In this document: positions 22,132 through 27,876 of the stretch, piece by piece
How the letters are laid out: every line of letters begins with the position of its first letter
Numbering within the stretch: the first letter of the stretch is position 1
NCBI RefSeq assembly: GCF_003449015.1
Contig: NZ_QRGD01000002.1
Coordinates: 496,001 to 560,000 of the forward strand
Direction: 5' to 3'
Length of the DNA: 64,000 bases
Source of the DNA: Aureibaculum luteum
GTDB taxonomy: Bacteria > Bacteroidota > Bacteroidia > Flavobacteriales > Flavobacteriaceae
Notes under the pieces: generated by a model
Databases searched by the model: none
Told to the model about the DNA's origin: nothing
Seen by the model: the letters and a program-made list of their open reading frames with translations, nothing else
Translations under genes and position numbers: made by a program

Positions 22132-22149
22132 TTCTAATGGAATTCTAAC
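22132..22149 (+). promoter_or_regulatory. Two TTCTAAY heptamers at 11-bp period (candidate operator of the response regulator)
   Basis: TTCTAAT (22132-22138) and TTCTAAC (22143-22149) start exactly 11 bp apart. Their first bases lie 49 and 38 bp upstream of the -7 box at 22181. The same heptamer occurs four times at 11-bp period before the UspA-like gene, where the two distal copies lie 50 and 39 bp from that -7 box. This matches direct-repeat operators of OmpR/PhoB-type regulators. Confidence 0.6.
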
Positions 22150-22180
22150 CTTACAATGTATCCTCTTTCATACAATATTT

Positions 22181-22188
22181 TATCTTTG
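22181..22188 (+). promoter_or_regulatory. Putative -7 box (TATCTTTG) of the two-component operon
   Basis: TATCTTTG fits TAnnTTTG. Transcription would start near 22195, which leaves only a short leader (about 6-18 nt) before the reading frame of the response regulator opens at 22201. Confidence 0.5.
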
Positions 22189-22212
22189 TTGATTATCTAA
22201 ATTTTATATAAA

Positions 22213-22893
22213 ATCGTAAAACAAATATTAGTAATAGAAGACGAGCCCAATGTTGCGGCGTTTATAAGTCAAGGACTTCAAGAATCGGGATATAAAGTAT
22301 TTTTAGCCTACAATGGTTCTAATGGATTAGATTTGTTGCAACAAATGCAAATAGATTTAGTGGTACTTGATGTTATTTTACCAAAGATGGATGGACGAGA
22401 GGTTGCAAAAAGAATTAGAGAAATGGGGTATACCTATCTACCTATAATAATGTTAACGGCCTTAGGTACAACTGAAAATATAGTAAAAGGGTTAGATTCT
22501 GGTGCAGATGACTACCTTATAAAACCGTTTAAGTTCAAAGAGCTATTAGCTAGAATTCGTGCTCGTACTAGAAATAAAGGTGTACCTGTTGTTAACAACC
22601 CCAAATTAACCTTAAAAGATTTAGAATTAGATACAGAGGCTAAATTGGTAACACGAGCAGGCGAGGAGATTAGTTTGACTTCAACAGAATTTCGACTTCT
22701 GCAATACTTATTATTAAATAAAAATAAGGTATTGAATCGTGTAGATATACTCGAAAAAGTATGGGATATTAATTTTAATATGGGTACCAATGTGGTAGAT
22801 GTATATGTCAATTATTTACGAAATAAAATTGATAAAAATTTTGAAGTAAAACTTATACATACAGTAATTGGAATGGGGTATATACTTAAATAA
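22213..22893 (+). CDS. OmpR-family response regulator with non-canonical start
   Basis: The frame opens at 22201 after a TAA and encodes a full OmpR-type regulator of about 226 residues. The receiver domain has acidic pair ED (about 9-10), phospho-acceptor D53 in VVLDVILP, T in 'MLTALG' and K in LIKPF. A winged-helix DNA-binding domain follows (about 125-226, with 'LTSTEFRLLQYLL' and 'VVDVYVNYLRNKID'). No ATG, GTG or TTG precedes residue 41 (TTG at 22333), and starting there would remove the first strand and the acidic pair. ATC at 22213 aligns with the expected initiator (xVKQILVIEDEP); ATT at 22201 is the alternative. The histidine kinase follows after 8 nt. Confidence 0.8.
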   Translation: MVKQILVIEDEPNVAAFISQGLQESGYKVFLAYNGSNGLDLLQQMQIDLVVLDVILPKMDGREVAKRIREMGYTYLPIIMLTALGTTENIVKGLDSGADDYLIKPFKFKELLARIRARTRNKGVPVVNNPKLTLKDLELDTEAKLVTRAGEEISLTSTEFRLLQYLLLNKNKVLNRVDILEKVWDINFNMGTNVVDVYVNYLRNKIDKNFEVKLIHTVIGMGYILK

Positions 22894-22901
22894 TAATATA
22901 A

Positions 22902-24281
22902 ATGCAGATAAGAACAAAAATAACATCCGTTTTTATAGTATTGACAAGCTTGTTTTTAACGGCCGTTTTTATCATTATTTATTTAGTATCTAAAGATTAT
23001 ACAGAGCGTGAATTTTACCTACGTTTAAGTCAACGAGCAACCATTGCTGCAGAAGGTTATTTGGAAGAGGATGAATTAAACAGTGATATTTATGAAGATA
23101 TACGGGTTAAACATTTACAAACATTACCCAACGAAAAAGAGGTTATATATCCTGTAGATGCTAAGCTTAAAAAGCCACTTAAAGCCTTAGATAATAGTCT
23201 TCCAGACAGTTTTTATGATAAAATATTTAGAAATGGGTATGCAGAACTAAAACAAAACGAGTATTACTATACAGGTTTATTATATCACGATAATCAAGGA
23301 GATTTTATCGTTGTATTATCAGCAACTGACCTTTATGGTTTTGGTAAACTTGATAATTTAAGAGACACACTAATTTTTGCATTTCTAATCAGTATTGCTT
23401 TTATTTCCATATTTGGTACCTATTACGCAAAACAAGCATTAAGTCCTATTTCAAAAATTATAAAGGAAGTAAACACCATACGAGCCGAAAATTTATCATT
23501 ACGTTTAAATACGGCTGATGGAAAAGACGAATTGGCAGAGCTTTCAACTACTTTTAATAAGATGTTGGATAGGTTGCAAATATCTTTCGATTTACAAAGT
23601 AATTTTATCAATAATGCTTCTCATGAACTTCGTAATCCGCTTACAGCGATATTAGGACAAATAGAAATAGCACTTTATAAGCCAAGAAGTGCAGATTATT
23701 ACCTTAATATTTTGAATAAAATAGATAGAGAAGCATCGCGTCTCGATTTCTTGGTTAACGGATTACTTAAATTGGCGAAAACTGATTTTGATTCTAAGGG
23801 TTTTGTAATAGACGCCATACGAATTGATGAATTGGTATTAGATATAAAAAAGAATCTTGACGTTTCAATTCCTGATAACAAAATAAAAATAGATTTTGAA
23901 GGGTTACCAGAAAATGAAGATGCTATAACCGTTTTAGGAAGTGACTCTTTATTAAGAGTAGCTCTAAGTAATATTTTAGAAAATGCGTGTAAGTTTTCTG
24001 ATTATAAAAAAGTAACCTTAAAATTAATATCAGAGACGGGCAACATTATTGTTCTTATAAATGATGAAGGTGTTGGTATTCCAGATGATGAATTAAAAAA
24101 TATTTTTGAACCTTTTTTCAGAGCCTCTAATGTAAGAGAAATAGATGGTTTTGGTTTTGGCCTTCCTTTAGCATACCGTATTATAAAAATGCATTCAGGT
24201 GAAATCAGGGTAGTTTCACAAATAAATAGGGGTACAATGGTTAAAATTACACTTCAAAGTAAATCTACCTATACATATTAA
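22902..24281 (+). CDS. Sensor histidine kinase
   Basis: A 459-residue membrane kinase. Transmembrane helix 1 spans about 7-30 and helix 2 about 155-178, enclosing a periplasmic sensor of about 120 residues. A HAMP domain follows (about 179-231). The HisKA motif ASHELRNPLTAI has the phospho-accepting H241. The HATPase domain has N-box 'NILENACKFSDY' (N361), G1 DEGVGIPDD and G2 FGFGLPLAYRI. It pairs with the response regulator 8 nt upstream. The stimulus is unknown; the adjacent SulP transporter makes an anion or bicarbonate-related signal a reasonable guess. Confidence 0.94.
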   Translation: MQIRTKITSVFIVLTSLFLTAVFIIIYLVSKDYTEREFYLRLSQRATIAAEGYLEEDELNSDIYEDIRVKHLQTLPNEKEVIYPVDAKLKKPLKALDNSLPDSFYDKIFRNGYAELKQNEYYYTGLLYHDNQGDFIVVLSATDLYGFGKLDNLRDTLIFAFLISIAFISIFGTYYAKQALSPISKIIKEVNTIRAENLSLRLNTADGKDELAELSTTFNKMLDRLQISFDLQSNFINNASHELRNPLTAILGQIEIALYKPRSADYYLNILNKIDREASRLDFLVNGLLKLAKTDFDSKGFVIDAIRIDELVLDIKKNLDVSIPDNKIKIDFEGLPENEDAITVLGSDSLLRVALSNILENACKFSDYKKVTLKLISETGNIIVLINDEGVGIPDDELKNIFEPFFRASNVREIDGFGFGLPLAYRIIKMHSGEIRVVSQINRGTMVKITLQSKSTYTY

Positions 24282-24292
24282 GGGGTTTTAAA

Positions 24293-24332
24293 TTCTAATC
24301 TCATTCTAATTTGGTTCTTATACGGTTCTAAC
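24293..24332 (+). promoter_or_regulatory. Four TTCTWAY heptamers at exact 11-bp period (candidate operator)
   Basis: TTCTAAT (24293), TTCTAAT (24304), TTCTTAT (24315) and TTCTAAC (24326) start exactly 11 bp apart, so all face the same side of the helix. The array ends 10 bp before the -7 box of the UspA-like gene and covers the -33 region, as expected for an activator site. Two copies of the same heptamer, also 11 bp apart, precede the response regulator gene. Confidence 0.7.
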
Positions 24333-24342
24333 TTTAGGCAAT

Positions 24343-24350
24343 TAGTTTTG
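24343..24350 (+). promoter_or_regulatory. Putative -7 box (TAGTTTTG) of the UspA-like/SulP unit
   Basis: TAGTTTTG fits TAnnTTTG and lies 16 nt before the ATG at 24367. The usual -33 position is occupied by the heptamer array, which fits an activator-dependent promoter. Confidence 0.55.
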
Positions 24351-24366: not shown

Positions 24367-24846
24367 ATGAAAAAAATATTAATTCCAACTGATTTTACAA
24401 CAGGGTCATTACAGCTTGTAGAATATGTTATTTTAAATTATCCAGATAGTTGCATAGATATTATTTTGCTCGCAGGTTACAAATTACCAGATAACCGCAT
24501 CACGTTAATGCACTTTAATGGACGTGAGCAAATTAACAAACAACTTAACGATGACTTTATTTCAGCTAAGAAAAGTCTTGTTCATCAACATAAAAAGAAT
24601 ATCAATAGTATAAGTATTCAATTATTTACGGGTGTAAATTCATACGCATTTAAAAATTTCTTAATCAAGTTAAATGCAAATGATGCTATTGTACCAAAAG
24701 AAAAATCTCTTTGTTACCATGGTAAAAGATGGTTTGATCCTACAAAATACCTTAGAAAGAATGTAACTAACATTGTTGAAGTTCCTTATAAAGTTTCAAC
24801 AGAACTACCACAACAAAAATTTTCATTAATAAACATTTTTAACTAG
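24367..24846 (+). CDS. UspA-like protein
   Basis: A 159-residue protein that begins KILIPTDFTTGSLQLVEYV, the first strand and helix of the universal stress protein fold. 'NINSISIQLFTGVNSYAFKNFL' fits the middle of the fold. The ATP-binding GxxGx9GS motif expected near the end is absent; the C-terminal third (GKRWFDPTKYLRKN, NIVEVPY) keeps only the outline. It may be a degenerate, non-ATP-binding Usp. It sits behind the heptamer array and 37 nt ahead of the SulP gene, which suggests a joint unit controlled by the upstream two-component system. Confidence 0.62.
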   Translation: MKKILIPTDFTTGSLQLVEYVILNYPDSCIDIILLAGYKLPDNRITLMHFNGREQINKQLNDDFISAKKSLVHQHKKNINSISIQLFTGVNSYAFKNFLIKLNANDAIVPKEKSLCYHGKRWFDPTKYLRKNVTNIVEVPYKVSTELPQQKFSLINIFN

Positions 24847-24883: not shown

Positions 24884-26566
24884 ATGAAAAATTTTTCGAC
24901 AAAATATTTAAAATCAGATATAAAATCAGGATTAGTAGTTTTTTTAGTGGCCTTACCCTTGTGTTTGGGGATTGCATTGGCAAGTGGAGCCCCATTATTT
25001 GCGGGTATTATATCAGGTGTAGTGGCTGGTATTGTAGTGGGTATGCTTAGTGATTCGCAACTGAGTGTTTCTGGTCCAGCAGCTGGGTTAACGGCTATAG
25101 TACTTGCAGCTATTGCAAGTTTAGGTTCCTTTGAAGCCTTTTTACTTGCAGGTTTTTTAGCAGGTGCAATGCAAATCATTTTTGGCTTTTTAAAAGCAGG
25201 GGTATTGTCTAATTATTTACCATCTAACGTAATTGAAGGTATGTTAGCCGCTATCGGTATTATTATCATATTATCTCAATTACCACATGCTGTTGGTTTC
25301 GATGAAATGCATGAAGGTGACTATTTTTATATCAATGCAACAGGTGAGCATCAAATCTTTCAAACCCTAAGCAATATGGTTAATTATATACATCCAGGAG
25401 CTTTAATTGTCGTATTAGCCTCTTTAGCCATTTTAATAGCTTTTATGAAAGTACCCTTTTTAATGAAAATGAAATCTTTACCTGGTGCTTTGATAGCGGT
25501 TTTAGCAGGTATCGCAATCAACGAAGTTTTTAAATTAACAGGTTCTTCATTGGCAATTGGACAAGACCATTTGGTAAGTCTGCCAATACCGGAATCTATG
25601 AATCAATTTTGGAGTCAATTTAGTCTTCCTGATTTTTCACAAATAGGGAATTCTGAAATTTGGGTGGTGGCCATTACCATTGCTACTGTAGCAAGTATTG
25701 AAACTTTATTATGTATTGAAGCAGCTGATAAAATGGATCCGTTAAAAAGATATACAAGAACAAATAGAGAATTAAAAGCACAAGGCATTGGAAATATGAT
25801 AAGTTCTCTGATTGGAGGAATACCTATTACTTCTGTAATTGTGAGAACCTCTGCCAATGTAGCCTCTGGTGGTAGAACTAAAATTGCTGCCATTTCACAT
25901 GGTGTCTTTTTAATGATAGCAGTGATTACTATTCCATTCTTTCTAAACAAAATTCCGTTGGCATCATTAGCTGCTGTTCTATTAGTAGTAGGGTATAAGT
26001 TGGCGAGTCCTAGAATATTTGTACACATGTGGAAAAATAGTAGAAAATTTCAATTTATACCGTTTGTAATCACAGTAGTTGCCATAGTGATGACCGATTT
26101 ATTAGTAGGTGTTGGTATTGGTTTAGCCGTTAGTATTTACTTTATTTTACGTGGTAATGTAAAATTAGCTTACTTCTTTAAGAAAGATAAGCATACCGCA
26201 GGTGAAACTATTAATATGGAATTAGCACAAGAAGTATCATTTTTAAATAAAGCGGCAATCAAACAAACTTTTGCACACTTACCAGAAAATAGTGAAGTAG
26301 TAATTGATGCTTCTAATACAATCTATATTGACTATGATGTATTGCAATTGATAAAAGAATTTGCAAATGATGGTTCTAGAGATAAAAATATTTCTATACA
26401 ACTTGTAGGGTTTCGAAAAGAATATAAGATAGATAACTCAACAACGCATGTTACATCGGTTGTATCAGATAATGAGGGGCCTGTTTCTCCAGATAAAGTT
26501 GTAAATGGAACCAAAGTTCCGTCTAATATTTTAAAAGTTACAGAACTGGCTCTTTCAACAATATAG
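24884..26566 (+). CDS. SulP-family inorganic anion transporter
   Basis: A 560-residue transporter with about 10-14 membrane segments in the first 430 residues and a C-terminal STAS domain (about 440-555). The start 'DIKSGLVVFLVALPLCLGIALASGAPL' and 'LSVSGPAAGLTAIV' are characteristic of the SulP core. The family moves sulfate, bicarbonate or other anions; bacterial members of this subtype (BicA-like) often serve bicarbonate uptake, but no carbonic anhydrase is adjacent. It is probably expressed with the UspA-like gene from the heptamer-containing promoter. Confidence 0.92.
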   Translation: MKNFSTKYLKSDIKSGLVVFLVALPLCLGIALASGAPLFAGIISGVVAGIVVGMLSDSQLSVSGPAAGLTAIVLAAIASLGSFEAFLLAGFLAGAMQIIFGFLKAGVLSNYLPSNVIEGMLAAIGIIIILSQLPHAVGFDEMHEGDYFYINATGEHQIFQTLSNMVNYIHPGALIVVLASLAILIAFMKVPFLMKMKSLPGALIAVLAGIAINEVFKLTGSSLAIGQDHLVSLPIPESMNQFWSQFSLPDFSQIGNSEIWVVAITIATVASIETLLCIEAADKMDPLKRYTRTNRELKAQGIGNMISSLIGGIPITSVIVRTSANVASGGRTKIAAISHGVFLMIAVITIPFFLNKIPLASLAAVLLVVGYKLASPRIFVHMWKNSRKFQFIPFVITVVAIVMTDLLVGVGIGLAVSIYFILRGNVKLAYFFKKDKHTAGETINMELAQEVSFLNKAAIKQTFAHLPENSEVVIDASNTIYIDYDVLQLIKEFANDGSRDKNISIQLVGFRKEYKIDNSTTHVTSVVSDNEGPVSPDKVVNGTKVPSNILKVTELALSTI

Positions 26567-27342: not shown

Positions 27343-27876
27343 TTAATAATTGTTAATTTCTAATTCTATTTTTTTATATAATATTCCTATGGCTCTATGC
27401 CTTCTAGACATTAATGTTCCTTCTGGTATGCCCGTTTCATTTGAAATCTCTTTATAAGTATAACCTTCAAAATCTACGGCAACAATAATATCTTTGTATG
27501 CAGGTTTTAATTGTTGAATGCATTCTTTTAATATCAATATCATTTTTTCAGAAGTGTAATCGTCAGAAGTGTTGTTAAATACTTCCGCTAATTCTAATAA
27601 ATTATTATCAATAGCAACAGAACGCGTGGGCTTAGAAGTACGCAATACGTCAATTATCTTATTTCTAATTGACCTATAAACAAAACCTGCTACATTGTTT
27701 ATAGGAGCATATCTATCTGCCCCAGAAAATAACTTTAAAGCTACATCTTGAATAATATCTTCGGCATCTCTATTGGCGGTGTCACTGATTTTTGTGTTCA
27801 CATACCTCTTGAGTGATTGATATTCTCTTCCGAAAAAATCTTTAAGTTTTTTGTTGTTTTCTGATTCCAAATTCAT
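27343..27876 (-). CDS. ECF-type RNA polymerase sigma factor
   Basis: A 177-residue sigma-70-like protein with regions 2 and 4 only. Region 2 is 'YVNTKISDTANRDAEDIIQDVALKLFS' followed by 'NNVAGFVYRSIRNKIIDVLR'. Region 4 is 'QLKPAYKDIIVAVDFEGYTYKEISNETGIPEGTLMSRRHRAI', with a helix-turn-helix. It probably directs its own operon and others. No -7 TAnnTTTG box precedes it, which fits autoregulation from a different promoter type. The next two genes follow at 11 and 9 nt. Confidence 0.9.
   Translation of the reverse strand: MNLESENNKKLKDFFGREYQSLKRYVNTKISDTANRDAEDIIQDVALKLFSGADRYAPINNVAGFVYRSIRNKIIDVLRTSKPTRSVAIDNNLLELAEVFNNTSDDYTSEKMILILKECIQQLKPAYKDIIVAVDFEGYTYKEISNETGIPEGTLMSRRHRAIGILYKKIELEINNY

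Follow-up and report, generated by a model that had tools for sequence, protein, structure and literature searches.

A putative heptamer operator at a fixed distance from the -7 element links an OmpR/PhoB-type two-component system to Usp-like and SulP genes in Bacteroidota

The 64,000-nucleotide stretch of Aureibaculum luteum DNA analysed here (the window) sits in a 5.1 Mb genome. Four genes lie in it on the plus strand in the order response regulator, sensor kinase, Usp-like protein and SulP transporter, and heptamer arrays are found in front of the first and the third of them. The features are listed below.

22132 to 22149, plus strand: putative half-operator before the regulator gene, made of two heptamers, TTCTAAT (box start 22132) and TTCTAAC (22143), separated by GGAA
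22181 to 22188, plus strand: -7 element TATCTTTG of the regulator promoter, assigned from its sequence, 49 and 38 bp from the two box starts
22213 to 22893, plus strand: OmpR/PhoB-type response regulator with an apparent ATC start at 22213 (Pfam Response_reg 1.3e-29 and Trans_reg_C 3.7e-24, on 22216-22890)
22902 to 24281, plus strand: sensor histidine kinase (HAMP, HisKA, HATPase_c)
24293 to 24332, plus strand: putative operator, four heptamers 11 bp apart, TTCTAAT (24293), TTCTAAT (24304), TTCTTAT (24315) and TTCTAAC (24326)
24343 to 24350, plus strand: -7 element TAGTTTTG of the Usp-SulP promoter, 10 bp after the last box, with the distal boxes at 50 and 39 bp
24367 to 24846, plus strand: diverged Usp-like protein, 159 aa, recognised by family-profile similarity
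24884 to 26566, plus strand: SulP family anion transporter, 560 aa (Pfam Sulfate_transp 1.1e-56)

An earlier note on this DNA had pointed out the six heptamers, their 11-bp spacing and their distances to the two -7 elements. All of these are present in the sequence as described, and the core interpretation put forward there, a regulator acting on both promoters, is supported by the analysis below, which is comparative throughout. The nearest named relative found was the flavobacterium Aureibaculum flavum, whose Usp-like protein is 99% identical. A gene for an ECF-type sigma factor is located near the operon (27343-27876, minus strand); no link between it and the boxes was seen.

The regulator consists of a receiver domain and a winged-helix Trans_reg_C domain, the architecture of the OmpR/PhoB family. 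Its best NCBIfam match, with 238 bits, is the heavy-metal subfamily TIGR01387 (CusR/CzcR/CopR), below the cut-off of 279.2; scores against the Bacteroidota PhoB model NF053854 (165.3 bits, cut-off 270) and the RprY model NF051850 (135.9 bits, cut-off 370) also stayed below their cut-offs. RprY (PMC3646045) was set aside as belonging to another subfamily. Among solved structures, mycobacterial PhoP is nearest to the DNA-binding domain. The closest NCBIfam model of the kinase is the heavy-metal sensor kinase subfamily TIGR01386 (180.1 bits versus a cut-off of 292.55). Receiver residues D9, D52, T81 and K103 and kinase residues H241, N357, N361, G390 and G392 are conserved in at least 85% of the 47 regulator-kinase pairs described below. 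The Usp label of the 159-aa protein is weak: the window protein had no Pfam match at 0.01, Usp (PF00582) was matched by 6 of 31 aligned family members (best 1.4e-5), and the family profile matches the solved protein PH0823, which we take to have the Usp fold, at 2.9e-4. The transporter reaches 192.7 bits against Sulfate_transp (gathering score 23.2), which places it in the SulP/SLC26 family, and 174.9 bits against the NCBIfam sulP subfamily TIGR00815, below the cut-off of 380.45. Its solved relatives include 5da0 (3.7e-23) and 6ki1 (5.2e-23).

The pattern TTCTWAYN4TTCTWAY was found four times in the window against 0.04 expected from dinucleotide shuffles, an approximately 100-fold excess of strict pairs, and none of 100 shuffles reached four. 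When two mismatches were allowed, the excess disappeared (32 matches versus 26.2 in shuffles), and so it is the strict boxes that carry the signal. The strict pair occurs seven times in the whole genome; four occurrences come from the two arrays, and each of the other three lies within an open frame (164, 470 and 530 codons). A 64-nt operator model retrieved one strong match from the whole genome, the Usp operator (E 5.6e-15). The next match had an E value of 0.004, and no larger regulon was found in this genome by the model; the half-operator of the regulator gene is absent among the model matches listed. The regulon in the window's genome is probably formed by these two promoters alone.

Two overlapping draws of 299 and 397 family genomes, searched at different thresholds, gave relatives of the Usp-like protein in 11 and 16 genomes, respectively, counting the genome of the window. 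In the phylum, 38 of 395 genomes had a match at E 1e-6, with ordinary Usp proteins counted as well. The search additionally gave 38 named loci, from which L064 and L065 were left out, no module being seen in them. From the phylum search, L086-L095 and those matches that had no locus (E 4e-10 or weaker) were excluded on the grounds of weak score and, for most, of open frames well over 200 codons. The resulting 66 loci, collected by protein similarity, contain near-copies (L029 of the window, L042 of L025 and L073 of L058); the 200-220 bases before the Usp-like gene were analysed in each. In all ten other family loci from the 299-genome draw, the Usp-like gene is closely preceded by regulator and kinase genes.

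A four-box array scored by the plain TTCTAAT consensus beat all 100 dinucleotide shuffles in 63 of the 66 loci, the misses being L035, L084 and L085. With weighted boxes, the weights for the period and spacing tests having been chosen after the boxes had been seen, a period of 11 was the best among 8-14 in every locus, the array score exceeded the maximum of 1320 shuffles in 64 loci, and a distance of 10 bp between the last box and the -7 element was the best among 4-18 in 58; shuffles showed no preference for 10. An array with spacing 10 was also found in all five later loci, none of which had been used earlier in the analysis. By greedy count, arrays hold four boxes in 48 loci, six in 10 and eight in one, with three, five or seven in the rest, and the third box leans to CTCTTA or TTCTTA, not TTCTAA. 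L043 has a run of eight boxes before its Usp-like gene, mostly alternating between TTCTAAT and CTCTTAG types, which hints at dimer units of 22 bp.

The comparison with related genomes that the earlier note had proposed as a check thus bears the array out: its period and -7 distance are kept before Usp-like genes in many Bacteroidota. One could still regard the boxes as chance occurrences or low-complexity AT-rich repeats, given that shuffles match the pattern about as often once two mismatches are allowed, but the strict-pair excess and the conservation across genomes, later loci included, bring the probability of this close to nil. The module is dispensable, since no Usp-like match was found in two further species of the genus. 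In the Runella locus L058, an operator, a Usp-like gene and a SulP gene are present, but no regulator or kinase match was found within 5 kb. A separate motif rule for regulators gave none in L035, L038, L041, L058 and L061.

The same check had covered the site before the regulator gene. Of 14 relatives, drawn from the SulP clade and its neighbours, 11 have two boxes there, at 49 or 50 bp from a -7 box. They are present in the window, L019-L022, L029, L030, L032, L033, L149 and L152 and absent from L023, L024 and L031; the regulator promoter of L020 has a third box. Since the first box of the Usp promoter also lies at 50 bp, the half-operator can be viewed as the same register with boxes three and four missing. 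Outside the SulP clade, regulator promoters mostly scored no better than mononucleotide shuffles (the exceptions are L026, L057 and L066), and the putative half-operator belongs mainly to the SulP clade and does not characterise the family as a whole.

The membrane protein behind the Usp-like gene varies. Assigned by similarity to one Pfam-confirmed representative per kind, it is a window-type SulP protein in 11 of the 66 loci, a distant SulP in five, a DUF1275 protein in 21, a bestrophin-like protein in 24 and none of these in five, two of which (L032 and L033) carry another gene. A family of ca. 160-residue proteins, one member of which had no Pfam match, is encoded between the Usp-like and DUF1275 genes in 15 of the 21 DUF1275 loci (L025-L028, L038, L040-L045, L062 and L068-L070). 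A tree was built from 47 regulator-kinase pairs, 44 from the 66 loci and the paralogous pairs L139, L140 and L143; L035, L042, L073, L058 and L067-L085 were left out due to opposite orientation of the pair, duplication, no pair being found or a short flank. On this tree cargo type requires eight changes, compared with a minimum possible of seven, and so pair and cargo tend to be inherited together. The two SulP types fall in separate clades, which is consistent with SulP having been acquired twice. L031 carries the label of a Chitinophagales MAG, but its pair falls within the flavobacterial clade, suggesting mis-binning or transfer.

The operator was also searched for starting from DNA. A sequence-only model derived from 40 operators was run over 34 genomes and recovered the Usp operator at E 2.8e-7 or better in 20 of 22 genomes with a Usp-like gene, many of these sites belonging to the training set and matching by construction; in G172 and G579 the operator scored just E 0.006 and 0.014. 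None of the 12 family genomes without a Usp-like gene had a significant operator match (best E 0.0047). A class-wide search gave a match at 1e-4 in 37 of 295 genomes, and the results that follow cover 20 new loci cut from it, all of which were read. A kinase of this family ends within ca. 130 bp upstream of the operator in 13 of them; no such kinase stands beside the operator in the other seven, among which L166 has a lone regulator-like match. Behind the operator are Usp and DUF1275 genes (L153, L158), Usp and SulP genes (L164, L168), a SulP gene directly (L163, L167), outer-membrane efflux genes recognised by similarity to L139 (L155, L156, L157, L159, L160 and L172) and, by eye, a leucine-rich protein gene (L154). 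Paralogous regulator-kinase pairs of G502 (L139) and G375 (L143) have the same kind of operator before outer-membrane efflux/RND pump genes identified with Pfam, which likely serve metal efflux. Since loci found from DNA alone show kinases and SulP genes, the operator marks a regulator subfamily, with SulP as a recurrent target. Two loci of G479 stand apart: at L141 (2969-3054) a four-box operator is followed immediately by a lone SulP gene, and no regulator pair was seen among the frames of 6.5 kb; at L140 a regulator-kinase pair is followed by three operators within ca. 1.1 kb, before small genes with no assigned function.

Operators without an adjacent pair (the seven new loci, L058 and L141) would be expected if the boxes were targets of a different trans-acting regulator and the pair were adjacent by shared ancestry only. 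We consider this quite improbable, given that significant operators are absent from all 12 genomes lacking the Usp-like gene, that a search starting from the operator recovers family kinases in most new loci, and that paralogous pairs carry the same kind of boxes before efflux genes. No description of this system was found in the literature searched; as only open-licence papers were covered, this suggests only weakly that none exists. Beggiatoaceae and five Bacteroidetes have TAACTGA heptamer repeats (PMC4679880), which were set aside as a counterpart: the heptamer differs, and in the main genome most copies are located just upstream of start codons.

The earlier note had the system drive an anion or bicarbonate transporter. 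The SulP and bestrophin-like cargos fit such a role, but DUF1275 and efflux cargos lend it no support. It is possible, although we would not favour it, that the transporter imports bicarbonate and that the kinase senses inorganic carbon or pH. The top matches of the SulP protein among solved structures include 6ki1, presumably the bicarbonate transporter BicA. In 24 of 66 loci the slot is filled by bestrophin-like proteins, a group with some bicarbonate-conducting members, and L024 has an NhaA-type antiporter gene downstream. However, the SulP protein scored 137.9 bits against the BicA model NF050096, below the cut-off of 880, and higher against the DauA model (207.5 bits, cut-off 614), and the slot is also filled by DUF1275 and efflux proteins, which to our knowledge are not bicarbonate carriers. 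Bicarbonate as the ligand is a guess.

We consider it very probable that the OmpR/PhoB-type regulator binds heptamer-4-heptamer repeats as tandem dimers and activates transcription of the Usp-like and SulP genes. With a half-operator of equal register before the regulator gene, the locus would constitute a self-contained two-component switch. The earlier note's reading of the boxes as OmpR-type direct repeats gains from the nearness of the DNA-binding domain to that of PhoP, a protein that binds 7-4-7 direct repeats. In a flavobacterium, the sigma-A -7 box has the consensus TAnnTTTG and is positioned at -12 to -5 (as given in PMC9723704). If the -7 box is given these positions here, the four boxes extend from ca. 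-62 to ca. -23. In the proposed mechanism, the kinase would phosphorylate the regulator, and two tandem dimers would occupy the four heptamer-4 bp repeats of the Usp-SulP promoter, serve in place of an upstream promoter contact and bring in RNA polymerase. Usp-like protein and SulP transporter would then be switched on together, and one dimer on the half-operator (ca. -61 to -44) may adjust transcription of the regulator and kinase genes.

Alternatively, the array may bind the regulator but repress, boxes extending to ca. -23 blocking polymerase until a signal removes the regulator. The closeness of the last box to the -7 element would suit this, and RprY of Porphyromonas gingivalis, an OmpR-family protein of the same phylum, is proposed to repress and binds its own promoter, as described in PMC3646045. 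We deem repression unlikely: exactly 10 bp to the -7 box is the best distance in 58 of 66 loci although leader length varies, and such a fixed distance would be demanded by contact with polymerase, whereas a repressor site should tolerate more positions.

An unexpected feature is the apparent start of the regulator gene. Its frame has a stop five codons before the ATC at 22213 and no ATG, GTG or TTG until 22333; starting there would drop the first 40 residues, the first acidic ones included. ATC occupies this codon in eight of ten core-clade genomes (the window, its near-copy L029, L019, L020, L021, L030, L031 and L152), and ATG is found in its place in L022, L149 and four outgroup rows. The tree requires two switches between these two codons, and the second codon of the gene varies. 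There is no standard start between the stop and ATC in the window, L029, L031 and L152 and none in the 15 codons before ATC in L030; the only in-frame ATG, GTG or TTG codons of L019, L020 and L021 fall within the -7 element or touch it. The regulator gene thus apparently starts with ATC. Precedents for non-standard start codons, infC and sigR, are given in PMC5472188. According to the same source, Streptomyces sigR, likewise a regulator gene without an ATG, GTG or TTG start, begins with GTC and is held down by IF3; here the codon is ATC, the gene encodes a response regulator, the phylum is another one, and the case is known from sequence alone. No response regulator with such a start codon was found in the limited literature searched. 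If true, the conserved ATC would add a response-regulator gene to the rare instances of non-standard start codons, and gene callers restricted to ATG, GTG and TTG would lose the first 40 residues of the regulator, part of the acidic pocket among them.

A wider picture can be drawn only tentatively. In it, a Bacteroidota-wide cassette of regulator, kinase, four-box operator and cargo, mainly controlling anion flux, would have had its slot refilled repeatedly (by two SulP lineages, bestrophin-like, DUF1275 and efflux proteins), and in one flavobacterial clade the regulator would be throttled by a conserved AUC start under control of initiation factor 3, as a second layer over autoregulation. What appears new here, judged from sequence, is the operator with its fixed position, found in many Bacteroidota, together with the diversity of the cargo and the apparent ATC start. 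The operator can be read directly from DNA as four boxes with an 11-bp period, the last of them 10 bp before the -7 element, and its geometry may predict targets of uncharacterised regulators. Through it, one type of sensor would be connected with both SulP transporters and bestrophin-like channels, and the transported ion and the signal would become testable with one reporter.

Among known systems, the mycobacterial PhoP box is similar in the length and spacing of its direct repeats and in occurring in longer rows; as reported in PMC4832192, the PhoP dimer requires 7-bp direct-repeat motifs with a strict 4-bp spacer, binds cooperatively, and binds three or four motifs in a row more tightly than two. 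Unlike with PhoP, the arrangement here is one of four boxes whose distance to a Bacteroidota -7 box is constant, and in the window's genome the regulon probably comprises just two promoters. Eleven of 15 residues are identical to PhoP in the stretch of the DNA-binding domain that we take to be the recognition helix; the PhoP target sequence differs from the heptamer described here. CusR/CzcR/CopR (TIGR01387) and AgrR are similar in that this subfamily is the best NCBIfam match and in that operators of paralogous pairs precede outer-membrane efflux/RND genes, in two genomes by Pfam and in six more loci by similarity. Unlike in heavy-metal regulators, the score is under the subfamily cut-off and the cargo is a transporter or channel; in addition, the sites of AgrR, CopR and PcoR are inverted repeats, to which some AgrR operators add a direct half-site, whereas only direct repeats are found here. 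The boxes of PmrA/BasR and PhoB differ in half-site sequence and target genes but are, as here, direct repeats with an 11-bp period.
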